64,000 bases of DNA from NCBI GenBank assembly GCA_001769535.1, contig MEOH01000018.1, positions 62,001 through 126,000 of the forward strand. The letters run 5' to 3'. The notes beneath the pieces are model-generated. The model worked only from the letters and a program-made list of their open reading frames with translations. It was not told the origin of the DNA and searched no databases. This DNA comes from Bacteroidetes bacterium GWF2_38_335. Lineage in GTDB: Bacteria; Bacteroidota; Bacteroidia; Bacteroidales; GWF2-38-335. Positions 9,470-17,803 of this stretch are shown one piece after another (the first letter of the stretch is position 1; every line of letters starts with the position of its first letter). The position numbers were made by a program, and so were the translations under genes.

Positions 9470-9943
9470 TTAAAATTTAAAATAAAAATCATCAAAATAA
9501 CCCCCCTTCCCACAACGGCACAAACCCTTTGCCCAGTGTACCATTTGCTTTGCCATGTGTACCAAAAGCTTTTTACTATGTATTGTGTACTTTGTGCTTC
9601 CTGCTAAGAACTTTGCACAGTGAACTGAGTACTTTGTACATAGTACAACGCCCTTTGCACCGAAGTTTTTGTCTTTTGCATTGTAAACCTTGTTCATTGC
9701 ACGGTAGTTTATGATCATTGCATTGTAAACTATGTACATTGCATTGAAGTCTGTGTACATTGCATGGTAGATTTTATTCATTGCATTGTAAACTATGGCC
9801 ATTGCATCGTAATCTCTGTATTTTGCATGGTAAACATTGTACATTGCATTGAAGATTTTGTGTATTGCAAAGTAAACTTTGTGTATTGCAATGCAGACAT
9901 TGTATTTTGCATTGTAGTATTTGTAATTTTCACTGTAATTCAT
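9470..9943 (-). CDS. Heptad-repeat reading frame encoded by 21-nt tandem repeats, function unknown
   Basis: 157 codons, almost entirely seven-residue units with the pattern aromatic-N/H-A-M/K-x-x-V/I (for example YNAMNKI, YHAMYTD, YNAKDKN). About 19 units are seen, becoming Lys/Cys-rich and less regular toward the C terminus. I recognise no family. The frame stays open through the whole array because the DNA unit is 21 nt, and it ends 4 bp before the XRE gene start, which suggests it is translated or serves as a coupled leader. Equally, it may be a non-coding minisatellite whose period happens to be divisible by three. No signal peptide or membrane segment is evident. Confidence 0.4.
   Translation of the reverse strand: MNYSENYKYYNAKYNVCIAIHKVYFAIHKIFNAMYNVYHAKYRDYDAMAIVYNAMNKIYHAMYTDFNAMYIVYNAMIINYRAMNKVYNAKDKNFGAKGVVLCTKYSVHCAKFLAGSTKYTIHSKKLLVHMAKQMVHWAKGLCRCGKGGYFDDFYFKF
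9528..9926. repeat. Array of 19 degenerate 21-nt tandem repeats
   Basis: On the plus strand the unit begins TTTGCA or ATTGCA and recurs every 21 nt from 9528 to 9926 without a phase slip, for example units at 9675, 9717, 9738, 9780 and 9906 (TTTGCATTGTA..., ATTGCATTGTA...). Units at 9675-9926 are the most alike; those at 9528-9674 are diverged. Confidence 0.9.
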
Positions 9944-11022: not shown

Positions 11023-11280
11023 GAAAAATAAATTGGTTCATTGAACATTTAACCTAACAAAAACATATCGGGAAAACTTGCCCTGTGCGTCGGCTTGTCC
11101 ACGTGTGGCGCGAAAGGCGGGTAATCCTTGCCCAAGTGGGGTAATGGCCTTTGTGGGAAGGATTAGCCCGACTTTTTCACACGTGGTGACTTTTTTTGTT
11201 TCTTTTTTGTGTGGCAGACAAAAAAGAAAAGCCCGTCCGGCTTGAGGACAAAATATAAATCAAACCAACAAACCCAATCA
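11023..11280. repeat. Long direct repeat, copy A (about 258 bp)
   Basis: This stretch recurs 669 bp downstream (11692-11950) nearly unchanged, from GAAAAATAAATTGG to the AACCCAATCA block. It contains the inverted pair CACGTGTGGCGCGAAAG near 11100 and TTTTTCACACGTGG near 11175, so it can fold on itself. A shorter diverged copy of its 3' part lies at about 11447-11512. No reading frame of note. Possibly a non-autonomous element. Confidence 0.9.
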
Positions 11281-11691: not shown

Positions 11692-11950
11692 GAAAAATAA
11701 ATTGGTTCATTGAACATTTAACCTAACAAAAACATATCGGGAAAACTTGCCCTGTGCGTCGGCTTGTCCACGTGTGGCGCGAAAGGCGGGTAATCCTTGC
11801 CCAAGTGGGGTAATGGCCTTTGTGGGAAGGATTAGCCCGACTTTTTCACACGTGGTGACTTTTTTTGTTTCTTTTTTGTGTGGCAGACAAAAAAGAAAAG
11901 CCAGTCCGGCTTGAGGACAAAATATAAATCAAAACAATAAAACCCAATCA
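11692..11950. repeat. Long direct repeat, copy B (about 259 bp)
   Basis: Second copy of the element at 11023-11280, in the same orientation, followed like the third partial copy by a stretch leading into the GGTGC hairpin units. The region 10991-12179 between the hypothetical gene and dut holds these repeats and no gene. Confidence 0.9.
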
Positions 11951-12781: not shown

Positions 12782-12881
12782 CGGAGTATTAATCTCATAC
12801 CCCGACAAATTTATTTGTCGAGGGTTGTTCAACTAAAATTTTTGATTCGTTTTCAACTTTCAAAAATTTAGTTTCACGAAT
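12782..12881. repeat. Dispersed palindromic element, copy 1
   Basis: About 100 bp, also found at 22929-22994 (3' two thirds) and 28281-28382 in the same orientation. It contains two inverted repeats: CCGACAAAT / ATTTGTCG, and ACTAAAATTTTTGA / TCAAAAATTTAGT around a 15-base loop. Here it lies between dut and the stop codon of the upstream gene, ending at that stop. Confidence 0.9.
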
Positions 12882-13936
12882 TAAATCAGAATGCGGTTTT
12901 GGTAAAAGCCTTCAAGCAGATCACGATCGGGTTCGACCTGCAGGTTTTTTCTAATGGCTTTCAGAACTTCAGGGGTTTTCCGTTTCCCGTCAAAATAATG
13001 CAGCAGGTCAAACACCACCTGCTGTATTTCAAATGTTCCAGCCGGCACTGAGGCCAGCCAGGTATTTTCGTTCTTTTTTCTGAACGATGCAGCCGGATTA
13101 ATTTTCATGATATCGGGAAGTTGAGGCTTCATCATTTTTTTCCAGGCAATCTCTATCTTTTTCAGTTGATACGGATGGTCAATGCCCATGAGCGACTCGA
13201 ATTTTTTCCGGTCAAGTTTTTTCACCAATTCATAAGCTCCAATATAAAACTGCTCTTCTTTTCCTTCCCACTTTCCCCATATTTCCTTATAGTTGTCGGG
13301 TTTTTTTTCATCGAGTTCATCGGCAGACCAGGACCATGGGTCGGGCGGTGTGGCGGGTAAATTTTCGGGTATCCCGTCAAGGAAAAATATGCTGTACCGG
13401 GCAAGCACCTGCTCCGATACCTGAAGATATTTTTTTACTGCGTTCCAAAAGTTTTCGCCGTCGGCTCCGCGCATGTGTCTGCAGAAAAATCCTGAACAAA
13501 CAGCCCCACGGCCTTCCCAAACCGCACACATTCCTTTTTCCGATTGATAAAAAGGGCATTTAAGAGATGCGTTTTTTCCAAAGGATTTTTTGCGGCTGAG
13601 TTCATAGAGATGCAAATATTTTTTCCCGGGCATGATTCCTTTCGGAGTAATTCCCGATCCGGCGGCGATCATCTGCCGAATGATTTTTTTTCCTTCTGGA
13701 AATTTTTTAGCAGATAAAATCAATCCGGCCATATAATTGGGAATATAAGGAAAATAGGTGCAGCACTTCGTTTCCTCTGAAAAATAATCTTGTCCGGACA
13801 CCCCGTTTTTCCCCGGCAGCATAACACAATCGTTGCAGTCGGCAAGCATTTCAGTATCAATATTTTTAGAAAAAAATGACGGAAAAATATCCCTGTATAT
13901 TTCAGGAATATAATTGGTTATGGTTTTTTTACTCAT
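12881..13936 (-). CDS. Conserved hypothetical protein with cysteine cluster (possible metal or Fe-S protein)
   Basis: 351 aa, no signal peptide or membrane segments. Cysteines are grouped: DCNDCVM (about 34-40), KCCTYFPYIPNY (about 57-68), and then CPFY, MCAVW, VCSGFFCRH (about 126-153). Such C-x2-C, CC and C-x4-C groupings resemble the uncharacterised YkgJ/CxxCxxCC-type metal-binding proteins, but I cannot assign it firmly to one. The C-terminal 150 residues are ordinary helical sequence ending in a region like a small winged fold (FDLLHYFDGKRKTPEVLKAI). Separate from its neighbours. The reaction, if any, is unknown. Confidence 0.7.
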   Translation of the reverse strand: MSKKTITNYIPEIYRDIFPSFFSKNIDTEMLADCNDCVMLPGKNGVSGQDYFSEETKCCTYFPYIPNYMAGLILSAKKFPEGKKIIRQMIAAGSGITPKGIMPGKKYLHLYELSRKKSFGKNASLKCPFYQSEKGMCAVWEGRGAVCSGFFCRHMRGADGENFWNAVKKYLQVSEQVLARYSIFFLDGIPENLPATPPDPWSWSADELDEKKPDNYKEIWGKWEGKEEQFYIGAYELVKKLDRKKFESLMGIDHPYQLKKIEIAWKKMMKPQLPDIMKINPAASFRKKNENTWLASVPAGTFEIQQVVFDLLHYFDGKRKTPEVLKAIRKNLQVEPDRDLLEGFYQNRILI

Positions 13937-14042: not shown

Positions 14043-14339
14043 TTAAAACCGCTTTTTCCGGGGGTTTTGTCTGTTATCAAAAAATGTTAAAATAATAATT
14101 CTATCCTTTTCGGTTCTGTAAAAAACATTAACCTGTCTGACAATAGTAAATCCCCTGATTCCCTTTTCCTTATTTTCAACCGTACCCATTTCAGGATATT
14201 CAGATAAAAGTTCAAGGAAACTAAATACTTTTTTAACAAACACTTTTGTGACTTTTTCTCCAAATTCCAAAATCAGGTAATCAAGAATTTTATCAAACTT
14301 TTTATCTGCTCTTTTTGACCATTTAATTTCTAAAGCCAT
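14043..14339 (-). CDS. ParE/RelE-type toxin
   Basis: 98 aa, typical for the ParE/RelE superfamily. Features: basic N terminus with EIKWSKRADKKFDKILDYL, the mid-helix FVKKVFSFLELLSEYPEMG, and the C-terminal strands RGFTIVRQVNVFYRTEKDRIIILTFFD with NRQNP at the end. ParE toxins poison DNA gyrase and RelE toxins cut ribosome-bound mRNA; the sequence (pattern ending FDNRQNP) fits the ParE side better, but the target is not proven. It overlaps the antitoxin gene by 10 bp, as is usual for coupled pairs. Confidence 0.88.
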   Translation of the reverse strand: MALEIKWSKRADKKFDKILDYLILEFGEKVTKVFVKKVFSFLELLSEYPEMGTVENKEKGIRGFTIVRQVNVFYRTEKDRIIILTFFDNRQNPRKKRF

Positions 14340-14572
14340 TTTTTATGTTTTTTTACCATCTCCTCTGATGATATAAGGTTTTCAGGGACTTGGCTTTCTT
14401 CAAAGGCAATTAACAAATCCTTTTGTTCCTGTTTGGTCAATTTACTCCATAACTGACCTTCTTTTGTTGAGGTCCTTCTTTTTATCAAATCATAAAAAAT
14501 CAACAATAGATTTTCATTGTCAATGCTGTCAATCAACGCATGGAAATCTCTTTTTAGCTCTATTGCTTTCAT
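14330..14572 (-). CDS. Antitoxin of the ParE/RelE pair
   Basis: 80 aa, first gene of the pair. Sequence is helical and acidic in the middle (MKAIELKRDFHALIDSIDNENLL-type N terminus, then LTKQEQKDLLIAFEESQVPE) and ends in EEMVKKHKKWL, a tail seen in many small Bacteroidota antitoxins that pair with ParE-like toxins. I see no clear HTH or ribbon-helix-helix. It should neutralise the toxin by wrapping it and probably autoregulates the operon. Confidence 0.82.
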   Translation of the reverse strand: MKAIELKRDFHALIDSIDNENLLLIFYDLIKRRTSTKEGQLWSKLTKQEQKDLLIAFEESQVPENLISSEEMVKKHKKWL

Positions 14573-14707: not shown

Positions 14708-14739
14708 AAAAAAACGCCACCCTTTAATTCCGGATGACG
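14708..14739 (-). terminator. Rho-independent terminator of the small peptide gene
   Basis: On the minus strand CGTCATCC pairs with GGGTGGCG (8 bp, two G-U pairs) around a 9-base loop and is followed directly by seven T. It begins 23 bases after the stop of the 32-codon gene. Confidence 0.75.
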
Positions 14740-14762
14740 TATTTTTTCAGTTCAGAAAAACA

Positions 14763-14861
14763 TTACCATTTCCACTTTTTTGTGGAGATGTTGTTCATGT
14801 TTTCTCCCTTTACTGATTTAAGTTCGCTTTTAGTCAGTTTTTTTACTTTTTTATTTTTCAT
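14763..14861 (-). CDS. 32-residue peptide with double-glycine-like leader
   Basis: ATG 14861 to TAA 14763. The N-terminal half (KKVKKLTKSELKSVKGE) matches the pattern of Bacteroidota bacteriocin/pheromone-type leaders, in which a basic start and L-x2-x-EL-K-x-V precede GG or GA/GS; here the end is GE. The remaining 12 residues, NMNNISTKKWKW, are short and Trp/Lys-rich. A rho-independent terminator follows at a fitting distance and no other gene shares the transcript. It may be a secreted signalling or antimicrobial peptide matured by a peptidase-containing transporter; no such transporter is in the window. I base this on pattern only, and a non-peptide small RNA remains possible. Confidence 0.6.
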   Translation of the reverse strand: MKNKKVKKLTKSELKSVKGENMNNISTKKWKW

Positions 14862-14971: not shown

Positions 14972-17803
14972 ATGAAAAAACTTTTTCTACTTGACGCTTA
15001 CGCACTGATTTACCGCGCATATTACGCTTTCATTAAAAACCCCAGAATCAATTCAAAAGGACTGAATACTTCCGCCATTTTCGGATTTACCAATACCCTC
15101 ATCGAAGTTTTGCAAAAGGAAAAGCCTTCCCATATTGCCATTGTTTTTGATCCGCCCGGACCATCTTTCAGGGTTGGAATGTTCAGTGCTTATAAGGCAA
15201 ACAGACCGCCTTCGCCCGAGGAAATTAAACTTTCGGTACCCTGGATTAAAAAAATGGCTGACGCTTTTTGCATCAAAGTAGTCGAAATTCCCACTTTCGA
15301 AGCCGATGACACCATCGGGACTCTTGCCAAAAAAGCCGAAAAAGAAGGTTTTGAGGTTTTTATGATGACTCCCGACAAGGATTTTGCTCAATTGTTATCT
15401 GACAAGATATTCATGTTCAAGCCAAAAAGAATGGGAAACGAAACCGAGATTATCGGCATAAAAGAACTTCCCGGATTTTTCGGTGTTGAAAAACCTTCGC
15501 AGGTAATCGACGTGCTTACCCTTTGGGGCGATGCTTCCGACAACATCCCCGGTGCCCCGGGCATTGGCGAGAAAACCGCCCGCAAACTGATTGCCGAATT
15601 TGGCGACCTCGACAATCTTTTTGCCAACCTGCACAAACTTCAGGGCCGACAAAAGGAAAGTATTGAAAAATCCATTGACCTGCTTAAACTTTCACGCCAA
15701 CTGGCTACAATCAATCTGAATGTTCCTGTTGATTTTAACGAAGAAGATTACCGGCTTGTCCCTGCCAACAGGGAAAAACTCAAAGCCGTTCTCGAAGAGC
15801 TGGAGTTCAGGAATATGCTTGGCCGCATGATTCCGCTTGGTAACGAGACTGCTTCCGTCCAAAACAAAGAAGAAGAAAAACCGGTTCCTGCCGCTAAAAC
15901 AAGACCTGCCATGCCTTCTGGTCCAATGCAGGGCAGTTTGTTTTTCGATGATGATTTTAAAGGGTTTACTCCTCCTGCTCCGTCAAACATGAGCAGTATT
16001 GAAAATGTGAAACACGAATACCACCTTGCCGATACCGAAGAAAAAAGAAAAAGCCTGATTGATTTACTGTTGAAACAAAAAGAGATCAGTTTTGATACCG
16101 AAACCACCAACATCGATCCCAACATGGCCGATCTGGTTGGAATGTCTTTTGCCTATCGCAGCCACGAGGCGTGGTATGTTCCGGTGCCTGCTCAAAAAAC
16201 TGCTGCCCAAATGCTGGTGGAGGAGTTCAAACCGCTCCTTGAAAATGAAAATATCTGTAAGATTGGCCAGAATATCAAATACGATATGATTGTCATGAAA
16301 TGGTACGGAGTGGAAATCAGGGGTAAAATTTTCGACACCATGCTGGCACATTACCTGCTCAATCCTGAGTTGATTCACAACATGAATTATCTGGCCGAAA
16401 ACTACCTCAACTACCGGTGTGTGACCATCGAAAGTCTGATCGGGAAAAAAGGCGCCGACCAGATTAACATGCGCAGTGTTCCCGTGGAAAAAGTTAAAGA
16501 TTATGCCGCCGAAGATGCGGATATCACTTTTCAGTTAAAGGAATATTTCGAGCCGGAGCTTGAAAAGGCCGGACTGTTAAAGCTTTTCAATGAAATTGAA
16601 ACTCCGCTGGTCCCCGTGCTGGCTGAAATTGAAAAAACCGGAGTATGGATCAACTCAGATGATCTGGACAGATATGCTGTGGTTTTACGCGAAGAAATCA
16701 TTAAAACCGAAGCACATATTTTTTCGCTGGCCGGAACGGAATTTAACATCTCATCACCCAAACAACTGGGCGAAATTCTTTTTGACAGATTGAAAATTGA
16801 GAGCGACGGAAAAAAATCCTCTAAAAGCGGCCAATATTCAACTTCAGAAGATGTATTGGAAAAACTAATGACCAAACACCCTATTATTGTGCTGATTCTG
16901 GATTACCGCTCGTTGCGAAAGCTGCTCTCAACTTATATTGAAGCGCTGCCCAGGCTTATTAATCCGCGTACCGGCAAAATCCACGCATCATTTAATCAGG
17001 CGGTGACAACAACCGGAAGACTCAGTTCGAACAATCCCAATCTGCAAAACATCCCCATCAGGGAAGAGCGGGGCAGGGAAATCAGAAAAGCTTTTGTTCC
17101 GTCTAAAGGAAATGTTTTTCTTTCGGCCGACTATTCACAGGTGGAACTGAGGATCATGGCGCATCTCAGCGGTGATCCATCGTTGATAGAGGCATTCAGC
17201 AACAATGAGGATATTCATACAGCCACCGCTGCAAAAATCAACAAAATTTCTCCCGATAAGGTCACCAAAGAAATGCGTTCAAGGGCCAAATCGGCCAATT
17301 TTGGAATTATTTATGGGATTTCGGCATTCGGACTGGCCCAAAACCTGAATCTGTCGCGCTCGGAGGCAAAAAATCTCATCGACAGCTATTTTGAAAGCTA
17401 TCCCAAAGTTAAGGAATATATGGATCAGAGCATTGCCAAGGCACGCGACAACGGATTTGTGGAAACAATTTTTAACCGGCGCAGAAACCTGCAGGTAATC
17501 AACTCCAAAAACCCCACGGTAAGAGGAAACGACGAGCGCAACGCCATCAATGCACCCATTCAGGGATCGGCTGCCGACATCATAAAAATCGCCATGATCA
17601 GGATTTTTGAAAGGTTCAACAAAGAAAACCTCAAAGCCAAAATGATTCTTCAGGTACATGATGAACTGGATTTTGATGTGCCCGAAAATGAATTAAAACA
17701 GGTTGAACAAATCGTTAAAGAAGAGATGGAAAATGCTGTTAAACTTGCCGTTCCGCTTACTGTTGAAACAGGATTCGGTAAAAACTGGCTGGAGGCGCAT
17801 TAA
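14972..17803 (+). CDS. polA: DNA polymerase I
   Basis: 943 aa, full length. Residues 1-290 form the 5'-3' exonuclease (LLDAYALIYRAYYAF, FEADDTIGTLA, TPDKDFAQLL, WGDASDNIPGAPGIGEKTA). Residues about 340-540 form a 3'-5' proofreading domain that looks active: FDTETT, IGQNIKYDM and YAAEDAD supply the DxE, NxxxD and YxxxD motifs. Residues about 560-943 form the family A polymerase: motif A DYSQVELRI, motif B RSRAKSANFGIIYG and motif C QVHDELDF. It fills gaps in repair and removes RNA primers. Transcribed alone, divergent from the small peptide gene. Confidence 0.98.
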   Translation: MKKLFLLDAYALIYRAYYAFIKNPRINSKGLNTSAIFGFTNTLIEVLQKEKPSHIAIVFDPPGPSFRVGMFSAYKANRPPSPEEIKLSVPWIKKMADAFCIKVVEIPTFEADDTIGTLAKKAEKEGFEVFMMTPDKDFAQLLSDKIFMFKPKRMGNETEIIGIKELPGFFGVEKPSQVIDVLTLWGDASDNIPGAPGIGEKTARKLIAEFGDLDNLFANLHKLQGRQKESIEKSIDLLKLSRQLATINLNVPVDFNEEDYRLVPANREKLKAVLEELEFRNMLGRMIPLGNETASVQNKEEEKPVPAAKTRPAMPSGPMQGSLFFDDDFKGFTPPAPSNMSSIENVKHEYHLADTEEKRKSLIDLLLKQKEISFDTETTNIDPNMADLVGMSFAYRSHEAWYVPVPAQKTAAQMLVEEFKPLLENENICKIGQNIKYDMIVMKWYGVEIRGKIFDTMLAHYLLNPELIHNMNYLAENYLNYRCVTIESLIGKKGADQINMRSVPVEKVKDYAAEDADITFQLKEYFEPELEKAGLLKLFNEIETPLVPVLAEIEKTGVWINSDDLDRYAVVLREEIIKTEAHIFSLAGTEFNISSPKQLGEILFDRLKIESDGKKSSKSGQYSTSEDVLEKLMTKHPIIVLILDYRSLRKLLSTYIEALPRLINPRTGKIHASFNQAVTTTGRLSSNNPNLQNIPIREERGREIRKAFVPSKGNVFLSADYSQVELRIMAHLSGDPSLIEAFSNNEDIHTATAAKINKISPDKVTKEMRSRAKSANFGIIYGISAFGLAQNLNLSRSEAKNLIDSYFESYPKVKEYMDQSIAKARDNGFVETIFNRRRNLQVINSKNPTVRGNDERNAINAPIQGSAADIIKIAMIRIFERFNKENLKAKMILQVHDELDFDVPENELKQVEQIVKEEMENAVKLAVPLTVETGFGKNWLEAH

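Follow-up and report, generated by a model that had tools for sequence, protein, structure and literature searches.

A 32-residue reading frame with its own terminator-like hairpin raises two questions at this locus: whether the frame is a gene at all and, if it is, what kind of peptide it encodes. The initial annotation had taken it for a compact gene whose product, with its double-glycine-like leader, would fit a secreted peptide, possibly a signal or an antimicrobial. We followed this up in the surrounding 64,000-nucleotide stretch, referred to here as the window, which corresponds to positions 62001-126000 of contig C18 (C18:62001-126000) in a 5.27-Mb assembly of 29 contigs.

The peptide gene and its leader

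The frame lies on the minus strand (14763..14861), with an ATG at 14861 and a TAA at 14763-14765, and its translation is MKNKKVKKLTKSELKSVKGENMNNISTKKWKW (32 residues). As a putative RiPP precursor, it divides into a leader part of approximately residues 1-20, MKNKKVKKLTKSELKSVKGE, and a core of approximately NMNNISTKKWKW. The gene named polA by eye is divergent from it and starts at 14972. An intrinsic terminator follows the peptide gene on the same strand (14708..14740) and consists of a hairpin at 14714-14740 and a U run; RNA folding gives the hairpin -18.3 kcal/mol with a z of -4.1, and 0/200 shuffles were equally stable. Elsewhere, the window holds a 21-bp tandem repeat (9676-9916, 11.5 copies) within a 157-aa ORF of YNAM/YHAM-like repeats, and a direct repeat of 253 bp (11023-11275 and 11692-11944, 98% identical, 669 bp apart) that has further partial copies.

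The initial annotation had proposed a search of relatives, and when 41 genomes were searched with the peptide at E up to 1, matches were found only in its own genome (G000) and in G001, at one place each. G001 belongs to the same genus and is the single other genome of that genus searched. The homologue in G001, MKNKNVKKLGIRDLKSVKGQSVKTEVKTKF (E 0.061, L003:1480-1572), is syntenic, being located between polA and the same large neighbor as in the window. Over the first 20 residues the two peptides share 14 identities, with 7 identical, 7 synonymous, and 6 non-synonymous codons, and the best of 3000 first-order Markov sequences modeled on the same 262-bp gap and read in all six frames reached 10 identical residues. 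Beyond the leader there is no clear similarity, the C-terminal part having diverged. The start and stop of the gene are kept in both genomes, and a terminator-like hairpin also follows the G001 gene (L003:1428-1453; -15.7 kcal/mol, z -4.3). The homologue at a syntenic place puts the gene beyond chance, and a conserved leader, a diverged core, and a private terminator together give the profile of a precursor peptide. The small peptide gene first noticed in the window is therefore confirmed by its ORF, its terminator hairpin, and its syntenic homologue in a second genome of the genus.

The nature of the leader needs a more qualified statement. The NF047798 model (leader_Chryseo) matches the window peptide with an E of 0.0015 and 18.7 bits, below its curated cut-off of 23.5, and TIGR01847 gives 14.1 bits, likewise below its curated cut-off (15.7). 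Across the whole of its own genome, the best place for NF047798 is the window peptide (E 0.03), and two other matches are partial (E 1.8 and 8.0). Because the dipeptide at the end of the leader is Gly-Glu in the window peptide and Gly-Gln in G001, we describe the leader as double-glycine-like and not as double glycine; neither pair is the usual cleavage dipeptide. The original leader reading is thus partly supported: the gene is conserved and of leader type, it resembles Bacteroidota GG leaders although the scores fall below the cut-offs of both models, and peptides with a true GG occur beside a relative of the partner gene in a different family (below). The secretion and the signal or antimicrobial role that it proposed stay putative. 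The proposal to look for C39-peptidase transporters in the genome yielded one C39 place, but on contig C12 and not linked to the peptide on C18, and no protease or exporter is linked to the window peptide gene. The C39 ABC transporter sits in a separate RiPP-like cluster (L017:6089-12818) with a 73-aa Cys-rich precursor-like ORF and a radical-SAM-like protein, the latter recognized from its motif by eye. With the single C39 place found being on another contig, a C39-linked bacteriocin cluster was rejected.

The partner protein

Downstream of the peptide gene and on the same strand lies a gene for a 351-aa protein (12881..13936, minus), a candidate maturase with a cysteine-rich N-terminal part and a C-terminal RRE-like domain. 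Its orthologue in G001 has 348 aa and is 45% identical, and there the peptide gene is only 67 bp upstream on the same strand; peptide and partner genes are thus linked in both genomes of the genus. In the window, a toxin-antitoxin-like pair (14043..14572, minus) that is absent between the same genes in G001 stands between them. It comprises a ParE-like 98-aa protein (14043-14339, minus; PF05016, E 1.3e-11) and an 80-aa protein (14330-14572, minus) that is antitoxin-like by position only, and it is probably an insertion and no part of the peptide system. The partner makes it probable that the peptide is to be read not as a plain secreted peptide but as a RiPP precursor with its own maturase.

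An AlphaFold2 model of the partner built from seven sequences has a mean pLDDT of 74.3; for residues 271-351 (12884..13126, minus), which the model shows as an RRE-like winged-helix domain, the block means are higher, at 83-93. When this segment was compared by VIA-align, TigE gave a Z of 9.1 (rmsd 2.4, 78 aligned residues), followed by ThcOx (8.0), the PbtF RRE (7.8), TbiB1 and MccB (7.7 each), and PqqD (7.0), and the RRE-type alignments overall span Z 7.0 to 9.1 with 74-84 residues aligned and rmsd values of 2.3-3.0; the winged-helix parts of PKMT2 (Z 7.7) and GdmN (6.9) score like RREs. The first Foldseek match of the partner is TbiB1 with leader peptide (probability 1.00, E 0.087). At the level of sequence profiles, hhalign places the family in register with nine PqqD-type proteins (275-332 on 8-68) without reaching significance (probability 0.8%, E 0.068), and the result with one PqqD-type protein was worse. 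Because the profile link is not significant, the assignment of residues 271-351 as a RiPP recognition element (RRE) rests on predicted structure.

The N-terminal part contains a CxxCxxCC-like cysteine region (residues 34-152; 13481..13837, minus) with cysteines at 34, 37, 58, 59, 127, 137, 147, and 152, all eight of which are invariant in 9/9 family sequences. PF03692 (CxxCxxCC, a putative zinc- or iron-chelating domain) scores 17.1 bits on the window protein and 21.0 on that of G001 against a cut-off of 23, and it is listed at E up to 1 for 2/7 family members scanned. This family has a cysteine signature that ends in CC and, further on, a C-P..C..W..R...C....C block; the eight invariant cysteines of the partner include a CC pair, but their spacing differs from that in the family name. 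The FliB model has no match in the seven members scanned. NF038110 (FliB) likewise found nothing among 149 relatives of G387, a genome with a partner homologue, a search that is uninformative because the 14 controls were silent too. Modeled alone, the N-terminal part reaches a pLDDT of 71 and a best VIA Z of 4.3; Foldseek returned nothing down to an E of 0.001, the PDB offered no informative match, and no solved structure matched the seven-member profile by sequence at E up to 10.

FliB of Salmonella offers a precedent. As described in PMC8598068, it holds a [4Fe-4S] cluster on a CX4CX3CC motif and has eight conserved cysteines, the cysteine motif is required for SAM-dependent lysine methylation, and the authors liken this motif to PF03692. 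We infer from the resemblance that the partner probably carries an iron-sulfur cluster; with a different spacing, no FliB match, and no informative fold match, resemblance is what this assignment draws on. The system is filed under none of FliB, PF03692, NF047798, and lasso, since for each of them at least one membership test came out negative.

The partner family and lasso-type genes

Partner homologues are rare. Within the order they were found in 2/198 and 2/393 genomes (own and G001), in a phylum draw in 2/395 (own and G387), in the family of G387 in 5/200, and in a class draw in 4/395 (own, G387, G1143, and G1240); the draws overlap and give nine members in total, five of them from one family. 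A tblastn search of plasmids with two members returned no match, and a scan of genome contigs with two patterns returned one relative only, apparently the G001 contig. All nine members are near RiPP-type genes, three (G000, G001, G1240) near leader peptides and six among lasso genes, as counted without control genes; with five members from one family, these neighborhoods do not amount to nine independent cases.

The peptide version was found in both genomes of the genus and, in a less similar form, in G1240, which belongs to another family (f243). There, six GG-leader peptides lie within 5.4 kb of the partner homologue on the opposite strand (L052), of which MKKTTKKGPVSGKKLTKSESKAIVGGKNITGRSNKSKLQSSTGIS is an example and the nearest, MKQGTKKVTAKNAKSISGGTKLSKKQAQSVVGGMVDKKKK, starts 323 bp from the homologue. 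These peptides have a true GG and a leader similar to that of the window peptide, and NF047798, compared with four of them, gave 13.3 to 14.9 bits for three, below the cut-off, and no match for one. A leader pattern composed after they had been seen matches only the peptides of G000, G001, and G1240 among 61 records (572 kb with overlaps, window included) and has no match in the remaining 38 kb of the G1240 contig read. A short precursor whose leader is conserved and whose core varies, as is typical of RiPPs, is represented by the two congeneric peptides, and six peptides with similar leaders are found in G1240.

The lasso-linked neighborhoods are of varying completeness. In G387 the homologue is accompanied by a cyclase (NF033535, E 1e-147, 493.5 bits; cut-off 525), a precursor below cut-off (NF033528, E 3e-5), PqqD, a B2 protein over the NF033537 cut-off, and an HprK-like protein at 23.5 bits, far below cut-off. 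The G705 neighbors are a cyclase 35% identical to that of G387, a precursor below the NF033528 cut-off, PqqD, and a nucleotidyltransferase; those in G675 are a PF00733 cyclase, a B2 protein over cut-off, PqqD, and a short precursor-like ORF matching no model. G597 has PqqD, a B2-like protein (PF13471), and a nucleotidyltransferase, with no cyclase within 16 kb, and G610 has PqqD, an ORF placed like B2 (by position only), and a lasso-leader-like ORF below cut-off 5.3 kb off. In G1143, B2 exceeds its cut-off (45 bits against 33) and PqqD does not (65 bits against 80); a cyclase-like ORF there has only 65 bits, and a kinase-like one is below cut-off. A tree of the nine sequences, which has two long branches (G1240 and G1143) and no outgroup, separates the three peptide-linked from the six lasso-linked members by a branch supported at 100/99; among 500 label shuffles, 7 and 19 gave an equally good clustering.

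Lasso precursors typically carry a YxxP motif in the leader, a Thr at -2, and an acid at core position 7-9. YxxP occurs in neither the window peptide nor its G001 homologue. A ring can be read in the window peptide from Ser12 to Glu20 with Thr10 at -2, and the only candidate in G001 runs from Gly19 to Glu25 and has no Thr at -2; the two readings do not agree. With no B1, B2, or cyclase linked to the peptide and partner pair in window 1-30000, no YxxP leader, and no shared ring acid, a conventional lasso peptide was rejected, a lasso-like reading being retained as a low-ranking rival.

Lasso-type genes do occur elsewhere in both genomes of the genus. Orphan B2 protease genes are found in the own genome (L028:9725-10159, equivalent to C18:135725-136159) and in G001 (L029:11707-12135). 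Their products exceed the NF033537 cut-off and are 46% identical to each other, and the own copy is ∼59 kb from the peptide on the same contig; in the stretches read around them, neither gene is linked to a B1 or a cyclase gene. Such B2 proteins could cut leaders. Asparagine-synthase-like proteins without Cys2 are encoded at L035:6973-8862 (own genome, contig C9) and L034:8825-10726 (G001, contig C72), with no precursor recognized alongside; they are 26% identical to each other, and their scores against three lasso cyclases exceed those against two relatives from the own genome. On contig C12 of the own genome (L054:4970-6994), a lasso-type PqqD protein over the NF033536 cut-off adjoins a sulfotransferase-like gene, recognized by eye, and is accompanied by an HprK-like protein, and G001 has two similar copies of the PqqD/sulfotransferase-like pair (L055:5286-6414 and L056:4947-6074).

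Proposed pathway, alternatives, and related systems

In the reading that we favor, with a probability of roughly 0.6, the 32-residue peptide is a RiPP precursor matured by the downstream 351-residue protein, a dedicated enzyme that is encoded on the same strand and has a predicted RRE and a probable metal cluster. The C-terminal RRE would bind the leader, and the cysteine-rich N-terminal part, probably with an iron-sulfur cluster as in FliB, would act on the Lys-rich core. With a terminator separating the two genes, much precursor and little enzyme may be made, and the modified peptide would then lose its leader and be exported. Judged from its sequence, the window locus has the genetic features of a RiPP pair, the modification itself being putative, and the peptide probably serves as substrate for a cysteine protein with an RRE, of a type that is rare and apparently new to the literature. 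Among the open-access literature matches listed, none describes such a cysteine protein in a RiPP setting, and no open-access paper was found that combines RiPP with YkgJ or lasso peptide with FliB. A paper on OleA (PMC7064751) contains a single mention of PF03692.

The chemistry can be named only tentatively. The peptide-linked cores contain 3 or 4 lysines each (one G1240 core counted by eye), and Lys-x-Lys is present in 8/8 (by eye). Lysine N-methylation as by FliB would be the first candidate, though we think it unlikely to prove the right one. Among the lasso precursor-like peptides near partner homologues, 3/4 have no Lys in the last 17 residues, which makes a single lysine chemistry common to the family doubtful. 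More speculatively, the cysteine-rich RRE proteins may be an undescribed class of RiPP maturases, namely FliB-like iron-sulfur enzymes for RRE-guided peptide methylation that act alone on the lysines of small leader peptides in one branch and tailor lasso peptides in the other; we hold this generalization with low confidence.

Other explanations account for parts of the same evidence. Short Lys-rich ORFs are common in AT-rich DNA and the leader scores lie under the family cut-offs, so that one might think of a chance ORF in AT-rich intergenic DNA or of a decaying remnant; since 14/20 leader residues are conserved where chance gave 10 at most, 7 of the codon changes are synonymous, and start, stop, and terminator hairpin are retained in both genomes, we consider this highly improbable, and the syntenic homologue led us to reject the chance ORF. 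An unmodified secreted peptide, either a class II bacteriocin or a signal, is a more serious competitor, if still an unlikely one. A C39 transporter encoded elsewhere would then remove a generic GG-type leader of the Bacteroidota and export the peptide, and the neighboring cysteine protein would be unrelated to it, in agreement with the resemblance to NF047798 and TIGR01847, with the one C39 place found in the genome, and with a survey that, as far as its account of Bacteroidales is concerned, links GG leaders to C39 transporters (PMC10352776). The C39 gene, however, is not on the contig of the peptide and has precursor-like and radical-SAM-like neighbors (the latter by eye), and GG-leader peptides are also found close to a homologue of the RRE-like protein in a second family. 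Gly-Glu and Gly-Gln are moreover unusual as cleavage dipeptides.

A scattered lasso-like pathway would make the peptide an atypical macrolactam precursor that the RRE of the partner delivers to the orphan B2 and to a cyclase-like protein encoded elsewhere. Both genomes do possess an orphan B2 over the NF033537 cut-off, a cyclase-like protein without Cys2 that is nearer to lasso cyclases by score, and standalone PqqD-type proteins; partner homologues occur in lasso clusters, and a lasso ring would be compatible with the Ser12-Glu20 reading, which puts Thr10 at -2. Yet the YxxP leader motif is missing, G001 has no such ring and offers Gly19 to Glu25 elsewhere with no Thr at -2, and the cyclase-like proteins, 26% identical to one another, are encoded on other contigs than the peptides, which leaves this pathway improbable. 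If the precursor and maturase reading is true, it would add a new enzyme type to RiPP biosynthesis that is common to minimal two-gene systems and lasso clusters, and the poorly understood CxxCxxCC-like proteins would gain a directly testable peptide substrate, a 32-residue substrate in a two-gene system being an easy assay target. Such small systems are likely missed by gene calling and cluster-detection rules.

Set beside known systems, the precursor and maturase pair shares features with several. Its leader, KKLTKSELKSVKG, is like those of Bacteroidota GG-leader peptides (NF047798, TIGR01847), but the window and G001 peptides have Glu or Gln for the second Gly and score below both cut-offs. 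In lasso clusters, which consist of B1, B2, cyclase, HprK-like kinase, and nucleotidyltransferase, six partner homologues are found among such genes, whereas linked B1, B2, and cyclase genes are absent around the window pair (window 1-30000) and the peptide has no shared lasso features. With RRE-bearing RiPP enzymes as treated in the RRE-Finder survey (PMC7470986), the locus has in common a small leader peptide beside a protein with an RRE-like domain. C-terminally fused RREs are known from proteusins in that survey; the fusions it names are with a glycosyltransferase and a glutathione S-transferase, a cysteine-protein fusion not being among those named, whereas at the window locus the RRE-like domain is joined to a CxxCxxCC-like cysteine protein. 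From FliB the partner differs in its spacing (CX2CX20CC versus CX4CX3CC), in its RRE-like domain, and in that the FliB model does not match the seven family members scanned. Both proteins nevertheless have an N-terminal Cys cluster ending in CC and eight conserved cysteines, and the protein substrate of FliB (PMC8598068) would have its counterpart in the proposed peptide substrate of the partner.
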